64,000 nt of DNA. It comes from Alteriqipengyuania halimionae. GTDB taxonomy: Bacteria > Pseudomonadota > Alphaproteobacteria > Sphingomonadales > Sphingomonadaceae. Each line of letters begins with the position of its first letter. Positions within the stretch are counted from its first letter, which is position 1. This document shows, in pieces, positions 42,876 through 52,960 of the stretch. A program made the position numbers and the translations under genes. The notes beneath the pieces are model-generated. The model was not told the origin of the DNA. It worked only from the letters and a program-made list of their open reading frames with translations, and did no database searches. The DNA is taken from NCBI RefSeq assembly GCF_009827575.1, contig NZ_WTYR01000001.1, positions 1,054,001 through 1,118,000 of the forward strand, in the 5' to 3' direction.

Positions 42876-42951
42876 GGACGCATAGCTCAGTTGGTAGAGC
42901 AGCTGACTCTTAATCAGCGGGTCCTAGGTTCGAACCCTAGTGCGTCCACCA
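42876..42951 (+). tRNA. tRNA-Lys (CUU anticodon)
   Basis: A 76-nt tRNA with encoded CCA. Acceptor GGACGCA pairs with TGCGTCC, discriminator A, D arm AGCTCAGTTGGTAGAGC, anticodon stem GCTGA/TCAGC around the loop CTCTTAA (anticodon CUU, lysine AAG codon), T arm CTAGG-TTCGAAC-CCTAG. It is intact because the element re-created its 3' half. Confidence 0.96.
42907..42951. repeat. attL core, 45 bp within tRNA-Lys
   Basis: This copy runs from the anticodon loop to the CCA end. It differs from the right copy at two places, which pair with each other in the T stem (A-T here, T-A at the right). Confidence 0.9.
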
Positions 42952-42980
42952 TTTTTTCAAGCACTTAGGCGAGCTTTCAC

Positions 42981-43001
42981 CCCGCCCCTCGGCGGGTTTT
43001 T
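42981..43001 (+). terminator. rho-independent terminator after tRNA-Lys
   Basis: CCCGCC-CCTC-GGCGGG followed by TTTTT. It lies 30 bp inside the element's left end and would stop transcription coming from tRNA-Lys. Confidence 0.85.
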
Positions 43002-43004
43002 CTA

Positions 43005-43026
43005 TTGGGGTAACGTTTGGGGTAAC
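43005..43026 (+). repeat. left-end TTGGGGTAAC repeats (putative integrase arm sites)
   Basis: TTGGGGTAAC occurs twice (43005-43014 and 43017-43026, 12-bp period). The same core recurs at the right end and upstream of the terminase genes. Confidence 0.6.
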
Positions 43027-43102
43027 AGTCGCACAGATTGCTAACGCATTGACTTCAAGGCGTGATACGTCCTCAATTTGCCCAACCATGGGGGGTGATG
43101 AA

Positions 43103-43336
43103 ATGGACGTTTCAACCCGCGAAGCTTTACGGGCGATCGTCTCCGGCCTGAGAAAGAGCGGAGCTATCAGCGAACGACACGTCAAGGCGATTGTGGCCGA
43201 GTTCGAGTCTGCGGAGTCGGAAGTCGGTCGTTATGGTAGCCCGGGCGAATATAGCTTTCGTCAGCTATGCATGGACATCGCGAAAGATGCAGGCGTTGAA
43301 ACTAAGATAAAGTCCGCCGAAACCCCTTTAGATTGA
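43103..43336 (+). CDS. hypothetical protein of the integrative element
   Basis: A 77-residue protein (MDVSTREALRAIVSGLRKSG...) mostly helical, with two amphipathic segments and no recognised domain. I chose the ATG at 43103 because GGGGGTG lies 7 bases upstream; the frame stays open back to 43049. It is the first plus-strand gene after the left end. Function unknown. Confidence 0.5.
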   Translation: MDVSTREALRAIVSGLRKSGAISERHVKAIVAEFESAESEVGRYGSPGEYSFRQLCMDIAKDAGVETKIKSAETPLD

Positions 43337-43470
43337 GGAAAAGCCGGGAGAGCCATGGGATCACCCCTCCCTCCGGCTGGCTGCCAAATGCTGAAGCTAC
43401 CCCGTCGTATCGACCAGCTCAAAGTGCGGGTGCGCGGTGATTAAAGTCTATAGCGGGGGGACTGAACCGG

Positions 43471-43695
43471 CTATTCTCCAAAACCCGGCCCGATCCTGTG
43501 CGGGCGCATTCCGCATTTTGAGCAACGCAGCCTCGGCGTCACTGCTTCCAGATGGTGCGGCATTCGGCGGTCGTAGCAGGCTTGTAGAAGCTTACGCGGG
43601 TCCAGCAACACCACACGCCCGCACTCGCAATCGAGCCTGAGTTTATATCCGTGCCGCGCATAGTCGGAGAGGCTGGTCAGGCGCTTGCTACTCAT
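43471..43695 (-). CDS. small Cys-rich (zinc-ribbon-like) protein
   Basis: A 74-residue protein with a CxC pair (LDCECGRVV) and a CxxC pair (RCSKCGMR) about 40 residues apart, a common arrangement for one zinc ion. Small proteins of this shape with SLSDYARHGYKLRLDCECGR at the N-terminus are frequent in sphingomonad genomes, but I know no function. The overlapping plus-strand frame at 43437-43640 is its shadow. Confidence 0.65.
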   Translation of the reverse strand: MSSKRLTSLSDYARHGYKLRLDCECGRVVLLDPRKLLQACYDRRMPHHLEAVTPRLRCSKCGMRPHRIGPGFGE

Positions 43696-50652: not shown

Positions 50653-50837
50653 GCCGCCACCTCACGCGAATTGATCCAGTCAAGGATGTCAGCTTCGCGC
50701 CAATAGCGGCGACGGGAAATATAAATTGGCTTGGGGAAGTTCAGGGCGTCGTCATTCAGCCAACGCCAAATCGACATATCACTAATTCCACCGCACATTT
50801 CTCGGACTGCGGCCGATCCTATAAGTCTGCTTTCCAC
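50649..50837 (-). CDS. alpA: AlpA-family excisionase/regulator
   Basis: A 62-residue HTH protein: LIGSAAVREMCGGISDMSIWRWLNDDALNFPKPIYISRRRYWREADILDWI is the AlpA/phage_AlpA pattern with the FPKP wing. AlpA activates or directs excision and replication of P4-like satellites and prophages. GTG start at 50837 with GAAAGGAAG upstream. It begins the operon alpA-74aa-201aa-ATPase. Confidence 0.82.
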   Translation of the reverse strand: MESRLIGSAAVREMCGGISDMSIWRWLNDDALNFPKPIYISRRRYWREADILDWINSREVAA

Positions 50838-50929
50838 GTTACGCTTCCTTTCATTGCGTTAGAACGTGGAGCCTCTTCTACGCACGGATTTTACCGCGTC
50901 ATCAACACAGAAACTAAGAAACCCTTTCC

Positions 50930-51499
50930 CTAAGTTTGTGCAGGGGGTTTCTTGCTATTTTCGTTCTCCCATTTGTGGATTGTAGTTGCCGACGGCGGGT
51001 TGCCATTGGCATCCACCGGCATTTCGCGCTGCAATTCTTTTACAGTTTTGCCTCCACGGTCGAAGGCTTTGGCCTTATACCACTCGTAAGCAGGATGCCG
51101 TGGCCTGCCACCCGTGGCACGCGCTTGTCCGCTTTCCCGTTCTTTCAGATACGCAGCCCATGCCGCTTTAGGAATGACAATCATACATCCAGCGTAATCG
51201 CCGGACTTAATCCTTCCCTCACCAAGATCGAGCCATTCATTCTCAAGCGGCGAATAATCCTGCGTTGGTCCACGCCAAGGTGCTTCGCGACGATCACCGG
51301 GCGGTATATCCAGTTTGTCTCCCCGTGGGTTTACACCCTCGATTGGTAGCCGCCCCACGAGTGCCCAAAGCTCGTCCGTCCAGCCGCTATGCTCAAAGTC
51401 AAAGCCATTGGGCATGGTGTTATCGGGATAAACGTAGTCAGACTGCAAGACGCGGCTCGCTTCCTTAAGCGCCACATATCCATTAGGCACAATCATCAC
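50930..51499 (-). CDS. hypothetical protein coupled to the integrase
   Basis: A 189-residue protein whose start (51499) overlaps the integrase stop (51496) by 4 bp. The C-terminal part with GGKTVKELQREMPVDANGNPPSATTIHKWENENSKK resembles a helix-turn-helix or DNA-tip segment, and the middle ends in a charged GRPRHPAYEWYKAKAFD. No known domain is certain; it may regulate integration. Function unknown. Confidence 0.55.
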   Translation of the reverse strand: MMIVPNGYVALKEASRVLQSDYVYPDNTMPNGFDFEHSGWTDELWALVGRLPIEGVNPRGDKLDIPPGDRREAPWRGPTQDYSPLENEWLDLGEGRIKSGDYAGCMIVIPKAAWAAYLKERESGQARATGGRPRHPAYEWYKAKAFDRGGKTVKELQREMPVDANGNPPSATTIHKWENENSKKPPAQT

Positions 51500-52746
51500 C
51501 CTGCCTCCGCCAGTCGCACAACGTTATCTGGCTTGCCCTCGACAAGCTCCGTCACGAACCGCCCCCAAGCTTCCATCGCCTGCCGCTTTTCCGGCGCGTA
51601 ATCGTGGCGCTGATACACCGAGACAATACCGGCAGCGGTCCCGGAAACGTGATTGAGGCAAGCCTCTGTCACGCGCACCGGAATGGCCAGCCGCGCCATT
51701 CCTGTTGCCGCTGTCCGCCGCAGATCGTGAAAGGTCCAATGCGGGATTTCGACCGGCTCCTCGCGTTCCTTGAATGCAATCTCGGCCATCTTCTTGGCAA
51801 GGCGGTCATGGCCTTTGGCGAAGCCGGAGACGGGCGTGTCGCCCGTGGTGGTGAGTACAAGCCCGCTTCCAGCGATACGCGGGACACTGGCCAGCACGTC
51901 TAGCGCAGCTTCCGACAACGGCACGTTATGCGCCCGCCCATTCTTCACCCGTTCGGCTGGCAGGCTCCAAAGATCGCCCTCAATCTCGGCATAGGTCATG
52001 GCAGCAACTTCCTGCCGCCGCTGTCCCGTCAACAATGACAGCTTTCCGAAGCCTCCCCACGGATAACCCACCTTATCGCAGGCTTGCCAGAACCAGCGGA
52101 TTTCATCGTCCGTCAGCACGCGGTCGCGGGCAACCTCTTTCGCCACCGGCTTCACGCCGGCGGCCGGATTGGTGGCCAGAATATCGCGCTCCACACACCA
52201 GTTGAAAAACTTTCCCGTATAGGCACGCACTCTGTTGGCAGTCGTTTGTCGCCCGCTGTCCACAATCTTGTCCAGCAGGTCGATAACATCGCGTTTCGTA
52301 ATCTCGTGAATGTCACGGTCGCCCCATTCCTTCACAACGTGCGCATCCAGCGCACGGCGCACCCCTGCCCCGCTGCGCAGATTGGAAAGGTGCCGCTTGT
52401 CGAATTGCTCGACTAGCGTTTTTACCTTGTCGCGTTCGGTAAGCTGGGCCTCGCGCTGATCGGCTTTGGCAGCCTTCTTTGCCACCGCCGGATTGCGCCC
52501 GTGCTCAACCTCTTCCAGCGCATCCGTTGCGGCCGCTCGTGCGTCTCCCACGCCCATGACGGGCCAGCGGCCCAGTGTAAGCTTCGCGGGCTTGCCAGCA
52601 AAACGATAGCGCAACGCCCACGACTTAGTCCCGCCGGGCTGCACAACGAGATACAATCCTGATAGGGCCGGGTCCGGTAATTCCTGCCGCCTGGCAAGGT
52701 TAGGCTTGATCGCCTCCACACCCTTCGTCGTAAAGCCTCGCGCCAT
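51496..52746 (-). CDS. int: tyrosine integrase, P4 type
   Basis: A 416-residue integrase. The N-terminal DUF4102 arm-binding domain (FTTKGVEAIKPNLARRQEL, ALRYRFAGKPAKLTLGRWP) is followed by the core-binding domain and the catalytic domain: Arg in LTGQRRQEV (R243), HDLRR (H340 and R343), the HVSG block and the nucleophile Tyr in SVYQRHDY near the C-terminus. P4-type integrases act on tRNA genes, which matches the attL here. The start at 52746 (MARGFTTKG) is the family N-terminus; the frame stays open five codons further. Confidence 0.95.
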   Translation of the reverse strand: MARGFTTKGVEAIKPNLARRQELPDPALSGLYLVVQPGGTKSWALRYRFAGKPAKLTLGRWPVMGVGDARAAATDALEEVEHGRNPAVAKKAAKADQREAQLTERDKVKTLVEQFDKRHLSNLRSGAGVRRALDAHVVKEWGDRDIHEITKRDVIDLLDKIVDSGRQTTANRVRAYTGKFFNWCVERDILATNPAAGVKPVAKEVARDRVLTDDEIRWFWQACDKVGYPWGGFGKLSLLTGQRRQEVAAMTYAEIEGDLWSLPAERVKNGRAHNVPLSEAALDVLASVPRIAGSGLVLTTTGDTPVSGFAKGHDRLAKKMAEIAFKEREEPVEIPHWTFHDLRRTAATGMARLAIPVRVTEACLNHVSGTAAGIVSVYQRHDYAPEKRQAMEAWGRFVTELVEGKPDNVVRLAEAG

Positions 52747-52760
52747 ATTCAAATGCTCCA

Positions 52761-52809
52761 CTGGGGTAACACTGGGGTAACAGAACGGGCCGTTTTGGCC
52801 CGTTACCCC
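52761..52809. repeat. right-end GGGGTAAC repeats (putative integrase arm sites)
   Basis: CTGGGGTAAC occurs twice (52761-52770, 52772-52781) and GTTACCCC once in inverse orientation at 52802-52809. They lie just upstream of the int start. Confidence 0.6.
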
Positions 52810-52915
52810 GTGTTAGTATCAGAGCATAACAAAGCACGCAACAGCCCTCAAATCTTAGTGTTTAGGCAAGCTAGACGTTTTGATTGGTTAGGGTTCGTTT
52901 GGGGGCTGATTTTGT

Positions 52916-52960
52916 CTCTTAATCAGCGGGTCCTTGGTTCGAACCCAAGTGCGTCCACCA
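52916..52960. repeat. attR core, 45-bp remnant of tRNA-Lys
   Basis: 43 of 45 bases match the tRNA 3' half at 42907-42951; the two changes are a compensating pair in the T stem. There is no 5' half here, so it is not a tRNA gene. Confidence 0.9.

Follow-up and report, generated by a model that had tools for sequence, protein, structure and literature searches.

Can a phage satellite carry a complete DNA-packaging motor but no portal or capsid of its own? The question is raised by an integrated element in a 64,000-nt stretch of the Alteriqipengyuania halimionae genome (contig NZ_WTYR01000001.1, positions 1,054,001 to 1,118,000; hereafter the window, whose numbering is used throughout). The element occupies 10.0 kb at a tRNA-Lys(CTT) gene, is bounded by 53-nt direct repeats and has its mobility, replication and packaging genes all on the minus strand. 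An initial annotation had described it as a 10-kb element with int, alpA, a RepA-like ATPase, a hexamer array, a terS-like gene and terL, and as having terminase genes but no capsid genes. Attachment (att) repeats delimit the element, Pfam and PHROGs support its int, AlpA, ATPase and terL genes, and the open reading frames (ORFs) scanned gave no portal or capsid match. We consider it probable that the element is a satellite from a dispersed family whose members bring their own TerS–TerL motor, dock it on the portal of a helper phage and add interchangeable parts. The analysis supports the satellite reading and extends it from one element to a family.

Terminase genes and attachment sites of the element

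The terminase large subunit gene (terL, 46387–47862, minus strand) encodes 491 aa with the ATPase and nuclease residues present. It was assigned by phrog_2 (4.8e-20), and three other terminase large subunit PHROG families match it below 1e-5; no Pfam family matched, and no solved chain was detected at E ≤ 0.01 with a five-row TerL profile. When 133 TerLs are aligned, residues G68 and K73 of Walker A and D173–E174 of Walker B are kept in all 41 delimited relatives (described below). The same holds for each of D310, D372 and D448–D449, which from their position in the motif we take to be the nuclease acids, while E343 is kept in 36 of 41. A dead nuclease, a possibility raised with the initial annotation, is not what these positions indicate.

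Overlapping terL by 4 nt is a gene for a 130-aa TerS-like protein (47859–48251, minus strand), the conserved partner of TerL in relatives. All 41 delimited relatives have a TerS-like gene on the same strand, within the element and upstream of TerL, although in four of them (L032, L047, L048 and L058) it ends 0.5–1.1 kb before the TerL ORF. Among the 94 loci in which the TerS-like gene lies within 400 nt, the overlap is exactly 4 nt in 66, which suggests coupled translation. From position and co-occurrence with TerL, we infer that the 130-aa gene is TerS.

No portal or capsid family was matched by any of the 19 ORFs of the window element scanned with PHROGs (10 proteins and 9 further ORFs). Its unassigned ORFs are at most 249 aa long, except for a 305-aa ORF antisense to the conserved 115-aa and 227-aa genes. 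The element further resembles a satellite in integrating site-specifically with its own integrase and att repeats, in having its own replication gene (an AAA_25 ATPase with an iteron array), in a size far below that of a phage and in holding no complete virion gene set by Pfam and PHROGs.

The integration target, tRNA-Lys(CTT) at 42876–42951 (plus strand), was located with ARAGORN and is also present, without an adjoining element, in G114, a genome of the same genus; the empty site is seen there on the left side only, the right flank being unlike that of the window genome (G000) beyond the att core. The two repeat copies, at 42904–42956 (tRNA end) and 52913–52965 (int end), are 92% identical at a spacing of 10,009 nt and differ at 4 of 53 positions. 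The tRNA-end copy has the native T-stem form, which is also that of G114, in contrast to the incoming copies; the int-end copy has the incoming form, CTTGG/CCAAG, a compensated pair change. Beyond the window the tRNA-Lys 3′ end recurs twice, so that three islands stand in tandem with the element (island A) at their head, and the compensated T-stem change is shared by the incoming att copies of the window, of L155 (117–166 and 14465–14526) and of L156 (18402–18452).

These copies bear on an alternative in which the element is what remains of a full phage after loss of the head, tail and lysis genes, the int–rep–TerS–TerL set having been left by chance. Decay of this kind could account for the four differing att positions, and also for the window copy being without a tail-tip gene that five loci (three distinct elements) of its TerL group have. 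However, because the compensated stem change is common to the tandem neighbours, the att differences reflect origin more than decay.

Islands B and C lie at G000:C1:1106965–1139251 (L155 and L156), and the window to the right of 52966 is B. Island B (~14.3 kb) encodes a type II restriction pair, an Abi_C protein, a Prim-Pol and an integrase-like gene (also by Pfam). Island C (~17.9 kb) has a reverse-transcriptase-like protein beside a CN-hydrolase-like protein (both below Pfam cut-offs), a DnaG-type primase, a Prim-Pol and an integrase-like gene 40% identical to the integrase of a relative.

A dispersed family of small integrated elements

Relatives were collected by a profile search of genome contigs with the five-row TerL alignment, from which the best 80 of 184 confirmed stretches were used. 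The TerL profile search of viral contigs gave 53 matches, whereas phage records gave 39 distant TerL matches only, all below 60% identity. Delimitation started from loci in which an integrase-cluster ORF precedes TerL and required an exact repeat of ≥17 nt shared by the integrase side and the post-TerL region; TerL and integrase are therefore present in 41 of 41 by construction, and the set leaves out L007 (a duplicate of L010) and loci without such a repeat. In L040 and L064 the att cores are only 14 nt, and in L058 the longest repeat differs from the repeat at the tRNA. The shared core of the family is best read as integrase, replication gene, TerS-like gene and TerL. An AAA ATPase cluster is represented in 9 of the 41 delimited loci and a serine-recombinase cluster in 8.

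The 41 delimited elements comprise 39 integrated elements and two closed circles. The integrated ones measure 9,004–18,298 bp between att repeats (median 12,564). In 36 of the 39, one of the att copies lies at a tRNA gene; 11 isotypes are represented, and tRNA-Lys accounts for 9 of the 36. Similar elements were sought in other sphingomonads, as the initial annotation had proposed, and 12-kb elements were found in Sphingobium ummariense (tRNA-Lys) and Sphingomonas aracearum (tRNA-Asn). They occur beyond sphingomonads too: hosts among the listed relatives are mainly Alphaproteobacteria including rhizobia, with Pseudomonas, Marinobacter and Halopseudomonas also represented.

Contigs L096 and L097 end in direct repeats (114 and 60 nt, respectively), which makes them closed circles of 9,705 and 9,338 bp (in L096, a 17-nt repeat and the 8,481-bp span that it defines are neither att site nor element length). 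Both are colinear with L040, which is integrated at a tRNA-Ser locus in a Caulobacteraceae metagenome-assembled genome, so relatives of the window element exist as circles; L097 also has, upstream of its integrase, a 24-nt near match (92%) to a tRNA-Ser end.

The relatives are thus not truncated full prophages: 39 are integrated with att repeats of their own, two are circles, and they hold a TerS–TerL core with no recognisable portal. A chance remnant of a full phage is also hard to reconcile with a core common to 41 delimited elements whose integrated members use tRNA genes of 11 isotypes, with strong purifying selection on the relatives' TerL and with closed circles, and we regard a degraded prophage as unlikely.

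Five plasmid records also match TerL: two from Methylobacterium, two from Komagataeibacter and one of 9.7 kb from Roseomonas (a short TerL fragment). Three plasmids were examined, one per genus. All encode a TerS-like protein and a recombinase, which Pfam identifies as a resolvase in the one tested, and each has a further gene whose annotation reads P4-family primase, VapE domain or DUF5906. In the 25.8-kb Komagataeibacter nataicola plasmid pKNA06 (L005), the TerS–TerL unit lies among partly duplicated surrounding genes, like a head-to-tail dimer with a deletion.

Virion genes and post-terminase genes among the relatives

For the 41 elements, the 111 proteins of ≥200 aa encoded on the TerL strand downstream of TerL were scanned with Pfam and PHROGs. 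Portal is absent from the complete Pfam list (23 families), which includes TMP_3 (5), TMP_2 (4), Phage_capsid (3), DUF2213 (3), Peptidase_S78 (2) and Phage_Mu_F (1). Among the 25 of 123 PHROGs families listed, the major head family phrog_617 matched at least five proteins and head protease at least four; a rare portal family may sit among the families beyond those 25. Portal hidden Markov models (HMMs) built from the portal genes of other loci found nothing in any ORF of the 41 elements. Local HMMs alone covered the ORFs of the opposite strand and the 53 that precede TerL on its own strand.

By local HMMs, recognised virion genes are present in 16 of the 41 delimited elements and absent from 25. 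With overlaps between categories, tape measure genes occur in 11 elements, major capsid in three, neck in two, tail tip in two and head morphogenesis in one; this tally leaves proteases out and misses the tape-measure gene of L096, which is cut at the contig ends. Outside the delimited set, L124, a viral contig of 8,231 bp with a 114-nt terminal repeat, is a closed circle of 8.1 kb with TerL, a capsid protein and a ParB-like protein, in which integrase and portal were not recognised.

Two post-TerL gene families have no assignment. One is a superfamily (clusters 21, 40 and 97, joined at profile probabilities of 95–99%) found in 15 of 41 elements; the other, cluster 28, is found in 10 of 41. 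The window element has a 227-aa protein (45354–46037, minus strand) that is conserved in six other loci (four distinct); its AlphaFold model (predicted local distance difference test score, pLDDT, 86) is an essentially all-helical coiled coil with one helix of 69 residues. This model had no Foldseek match in PDB or BFVD at E ≤ 0.001, and the protein none in phage records at E ≤ 0.01. The 236-aa post-TerL protein of L009, from the superfamily, is likewise modelled as all helical (pLDDT 95) and had no match in BFVD at E ≤ 0.001. The top VIA-align rows for the L009 model (Z 10.9 over 126 residues at 3.4 Å; Z 10.8 over 154 residues at 8.2 Å) were designed helical bundles, in an uninformative range, and were set aside. 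From these models, the post-TerL proteins are possibly helical adaptors or scaffold-like factors.

A portal and capsid that are present but too diverged to be recognised would make these elements miniature capsid-forming satellites. In favour of this are the HK97-type capsid in 3 of 41 elements (local HMM; at least five proteins by phrog_617), the head proteases in a few, and the 25 of 41 elements that carry one of the two unassigned post-TerL families, one of which was modelled. The HK97 capsid fold is not all-helical, unlike the 227-aa and L009 models, which are all or nearly all helical, and apart from the 305-aa antisense ORF the window element has no unassigned ORF of portal size. Hidden portal and capsid genes, which the initial annotation had flagged, were looked for by family matching and by modelling of the 227-aa protein and were not found; we judge their presence very unlikely.

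Terminase phylogeny and selection

In a TerL tree of 133 rows, the window TerL groups with those of L008 (Sphingobium), L009 (Devosia), L010 (Sphingomonas) and L011/L088 (six rows, support 95), and a wider group adds L012, L013 and L089 (support 100). The tree leaves out L007, L077, L006, L139, L135 and TerL rows under 350 aa. Portal-bearing TerLs come from 19 loci (local HMMs), mostly long branches from metagenomic viral contigs (by IMG identifiers); one of the 19, L077, duplicates L002 and is absent from the tree. In L102 and L103 a portal gene begins no more than 0.9 kb after a satellite-type TerS–TerL pair; each locus is a candidate ancestor, helper or larger satellite, and their position inside a satellite group speaks against a clean separation of portal-bearing from portal-less TerLs. 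In L002/L077 (Shinella sp. SUS2, a 23-kb contig), a satellite-type TerS–TerL pair with a serine recombinase adjoins a different TerL-like gene and a short portal ORF, possibly an insertion into a prophage.

The ratio of nonsynonymous to synonymous substitution (dN/dS, Nei–Gojobori) for TerL was 0.046–0.186 in 15 of 16 pairs, the window–L009 pair being saturated; this is purifying selection on the TerL of the relatives. For the TerS-like gene, with the start taken as that of the longest ORF, dN/dS was 0.088–0.585 in all 16 pairs and exceeded the TerL value in 12 of the 15 for which TerL could also be computed. Two elements in Nitrobacter vulgaris Ab1 (L021 and L080) have TerLs 93% identical and TerS-like proteins 44% identical; for two in Afipia clevelandensis (L047 and L058) the values are 94% and 67%. 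Such co-resident pairs fit recognition of its own DNA by each element, and gene exchange alone would give the same pattern.

The faster change of the TerS-like gene could also reflect specificity of interference. That would suit an alternative in which TerS–TerL do not package the satellite: the motor would resolve concatemers or poison helper packaging, and the DNA would enter virions otherwise. That no helper with a related TerL was found also speaks for it, Rhizobium phage RHph_X2_24 (considered below) having no matching ORF in the 50 kb covered. Against it stand the presence of the ATPase and nuclease motif residues in every one of the 41 relatives and the coupled translation suggested by the recurrent 4-nt overlap, and we find this alternative improbable. 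From gene content, kept motor residues and selection, we infer instead that the element is packaged by its own motor on a foreign portal.

Tail-tip genes and candidate carriers

In L010, L008 and L011/L088, homologues of the window 115-aa and 227-aa genes are followed by a gene for a tail-tip protein of 655–717 aa. The L010 protein matches phrog_5616 (annotated tail fiber) at 6.7e-60. RHph_X2_24, a phage of 55.7 kb that encodes a DNA polymerase, a terminase and a capsid protein of its own, has a gene to which the tail-tip protein is 49–54% identical over 566–601 aa. As this phage shares the tail gene and not the motor, the comparison supports a satellite that assembles parts. The tail-tip gene was found in none of 118 genomes at E ≤ 1e-20, the window genome included, in a set that held no known positive genome.

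The window genome has a single PF04860 portal gene and a single PF05065 capsid gene, together in one cluster (L142, G000:C1:2600000–2616000) with TerL, protease and tail genes, which we read as a gene transfer agent. The element might accordingly travel in gene-transfer-agent particles of its own host, and the agent-like cluster, the lack of any other PF04860 or PF05065 gene there and the mainly alphaproteobacterial hosts of the listed relatives suit that idea. Yet heads of Rhodobacter-type agents hold ~4 kb, less than the element, and relatives occur in Pseudomonas, Marinobacter and Halopseudomonas, which leaves this route extremely unlikely. Of the 13 relatives covered, namely L081, L084 and 11 from the delimited set, 7 have a PF04860 portal gene elsewhere in the genome.

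Hexamer array and other genes of the element

Counting both strands, GGGACA occurs 10 times in the 1,150 nt that precede TerL, in an array between rep and terS; in 30 mononucleotide shuffles no counted word exceeded six copies. The iteron-like GGGACA/TGTCCC array at 48558–48656 is, judging from its sequence, a probable replication origin, with a packaging site as the alternative. L008 has GGGACA nine times, and L011 and L013 have other words upstream of the TerS-like ORF; no comparable array was seen in L009, L010, L012 or L089. Of 127 loci, 39 surpass every one of the 30 shuffles; an AAA ATPase is present in 33 of the loci, and 18 of these belong to the 39. The mononucleotide shuffles do not keep dinucleotides.

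From the int end inwards, all on the minus strand, the element encodes a tyrosine integrase of 421 aa (51496–52761; PF13356/PF00589, phrog_1 at 8.1e-62); a 189-aa protein (50930–51499) with no Pfam or PADLOC match and a best PHROG E-value of 0.069; an AlpA-type excisionase/regulator of 62 aa (50649–50837; PF05930 at 1.7e-4 and 21.9 bits against a cut-off of 21, phrog_66); a 74-aa protein (50428–50652) with no Pfam or PHROGs match; a 213-aa protein (49826–50467) with nothing below E 0.05 in Pfam, PHROGs or PADLOC; and a RepA-like AAA_25 replication ATPase of 391 aa (48658–49833; PF13481 at 1.6e-37, phrog_906 DNA polymerase/primase at 2e-43). Pfam gave no P4-type primase match in this replication gene and no HNH endonuclease match among the 10 window proteins scanned.

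Downstream of terL, also on the minus strand, come a 115-aa protein (46043–46390), which aligns at 24–34% identity with a gene of three other sphingomonad elements, the 227-aa protein and a 111-aa protein (44911–45246) of a phage family of unknown function (phrog_419, 3.6e-9). The remainder, 42957–44910, is a variable region of lower GC content (0.51–0.55) and probable cargo, with small ORFs at 43049–43336 (plus), 43471–43695 (minus), 43736–44446 (plus) and 44504–44800 (plus); none of the four has a PHROG match, and none of the three scanned with PADLOC has a match there.

Comparison with known satellites and related elements

Phage-inducible chromosomal islands (PICIs) combine int, an AlpA-type regulator, a replication module and a packaging gene among small genes. 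The window element has the int, the AlpA-type regulator, the replication module and small genes, but differs in carrying its own TerL. Staphylococcus aureus pathogenicity islands with a packaging gene are described as bringing TerS and redirecting packaging to their own pac sites. Capsid-forming PICIs (cf-PICIs) are integrated satellites with TerS and TerL plus portal, capsid, protease and connectors, borrowing only tails (PMC10690885). The window element is like them in carrying TerL, and TerS-like by position only, and unlike them in having no portal or capsid match, with portal in 0 of 41 relatives and capsid in 3 of 41 (local HMM). Its own TerL thus sets it apart from PICIs, and the failure to find a portal or capsid from cf-PICIs.

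The Streptomyces satellites MulchRoom and MiniFlayer also have both terminase genes and are reported to carry portal, capsid and scaffold as well, without key replication genes; the window element has no portal or capsid match and does have a replication gene. Virion-encapsidated integrative mobile elements (VEIMEs) and tycheposons are integrative elements of environmental bacteria proposed to be satellites, tycheposons having tRNA genes at their borders (PMC10872708); the window element is likewise integrative and, as in tycheposons, has a tRNA border. AH14b of Pseudomonas sp. ANT_H14 is a small inducible prophage-like satellite in the capsid of another phage, in which its authors were unable to identify a terminase gene (PMC4936722); the window element, also small and prophage-like, has TerL. 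Phage-inducible chromosomal minimalist islands (PICMIs) integrate next to fis in Vibrionaceae, whereas the site here is tRNA-Lys and the host belongs to the same family as Sphingomonas aracearum (L010). From gene transfer agents the element differs in having an integrase and att sites and no head cluster, and from a defective prophage in that no head, tail or lysis remnants were recognised beyond TerS–TerL and the delimited relatives are of the same small type. In the open-access literature searched, no report of a satellite with TerS–TerL and no portal was recognised.

A proposed motor for foreign portals

The proposed cycle would begin with excision at the tRNA-Lys att site by AlpA and integrase, followed by replication from the iteron array via the RepA-like ATPase. 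The element's own TerS–TerL would then cut its concatemers, and this complete motor would dock on the portal of procapsids of an infecting helper, rather than lending only TerS to the helper TerL. The small post-TerL genes (115, 227 and 111 aa here; tape measure, tail tip, neck, and protease with capsid in some relatives) would serve as interchangeable adaptors to helper virions.

Several observations weigh against this cycle. A search of the host genome with PF04860 and PF05065 found no helper, the single match to each falling inside the gene-transfer-agent-like cluster. In the 50 kb of RHph_X2_24 covered, the satellite TerL profile detected none of the ORFs of ≥100 aa at E ≤ 1, which is awkward for docking on the portal of this phage, and a phage that shares the tail gene and not the motor is weakened as the type of portal donor. 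The window TerS-like protein matches no terminase family in Pfam or PHROGs and nothing among PDB sequences; across 61 members, PHROGs gave no named terminase family (two weak matches, both to unnamed families), and a profile built from the 61 detected no solved chain at E ≤ 0.1. A few relatives do have capsid genes (three elements by local HMM, three proteins by Pfam, at least five by PHROGs), and the portal-bearing L102 and L103 (phrog_145 type) nest among portal-less loci in the TerL tree. The family is also rare: counting the window genome each time, TerL was found in 2 of the 396 genomes sampled from the order and in 4 of the 385 from the class, one of the four class-level matches being a C-terminal piece.

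With these points taken into account, a satellite whose own motor docks on a helper portal is still the reading that we think likely. More tentatively, motor replacement may be the defining trait of the family, with TerS–TerL working on foreign portals, TerS changing fast so that each element recognises its own DNA alone, and single virion parts acquired from phages (tape measure, tail tip, neck, capsid with protease) retuning helper particles piece by piece.

In the satellites compared here, hijacking of the helper depends on TerS, on small-capsid factors or on a complete head of the satellite's own. TerS and TerL without a portal imply a motor that accepts the portal of another phage, so that motor–portal compatibility, a long-standing question in DNA packaging, would become testable with natural pairs. 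Such elements may be mistaken for broken prophages, and the lone tape-measure, tail-tip or capsid genes beside the motor would be natural experiments in the exchange of virion parts.

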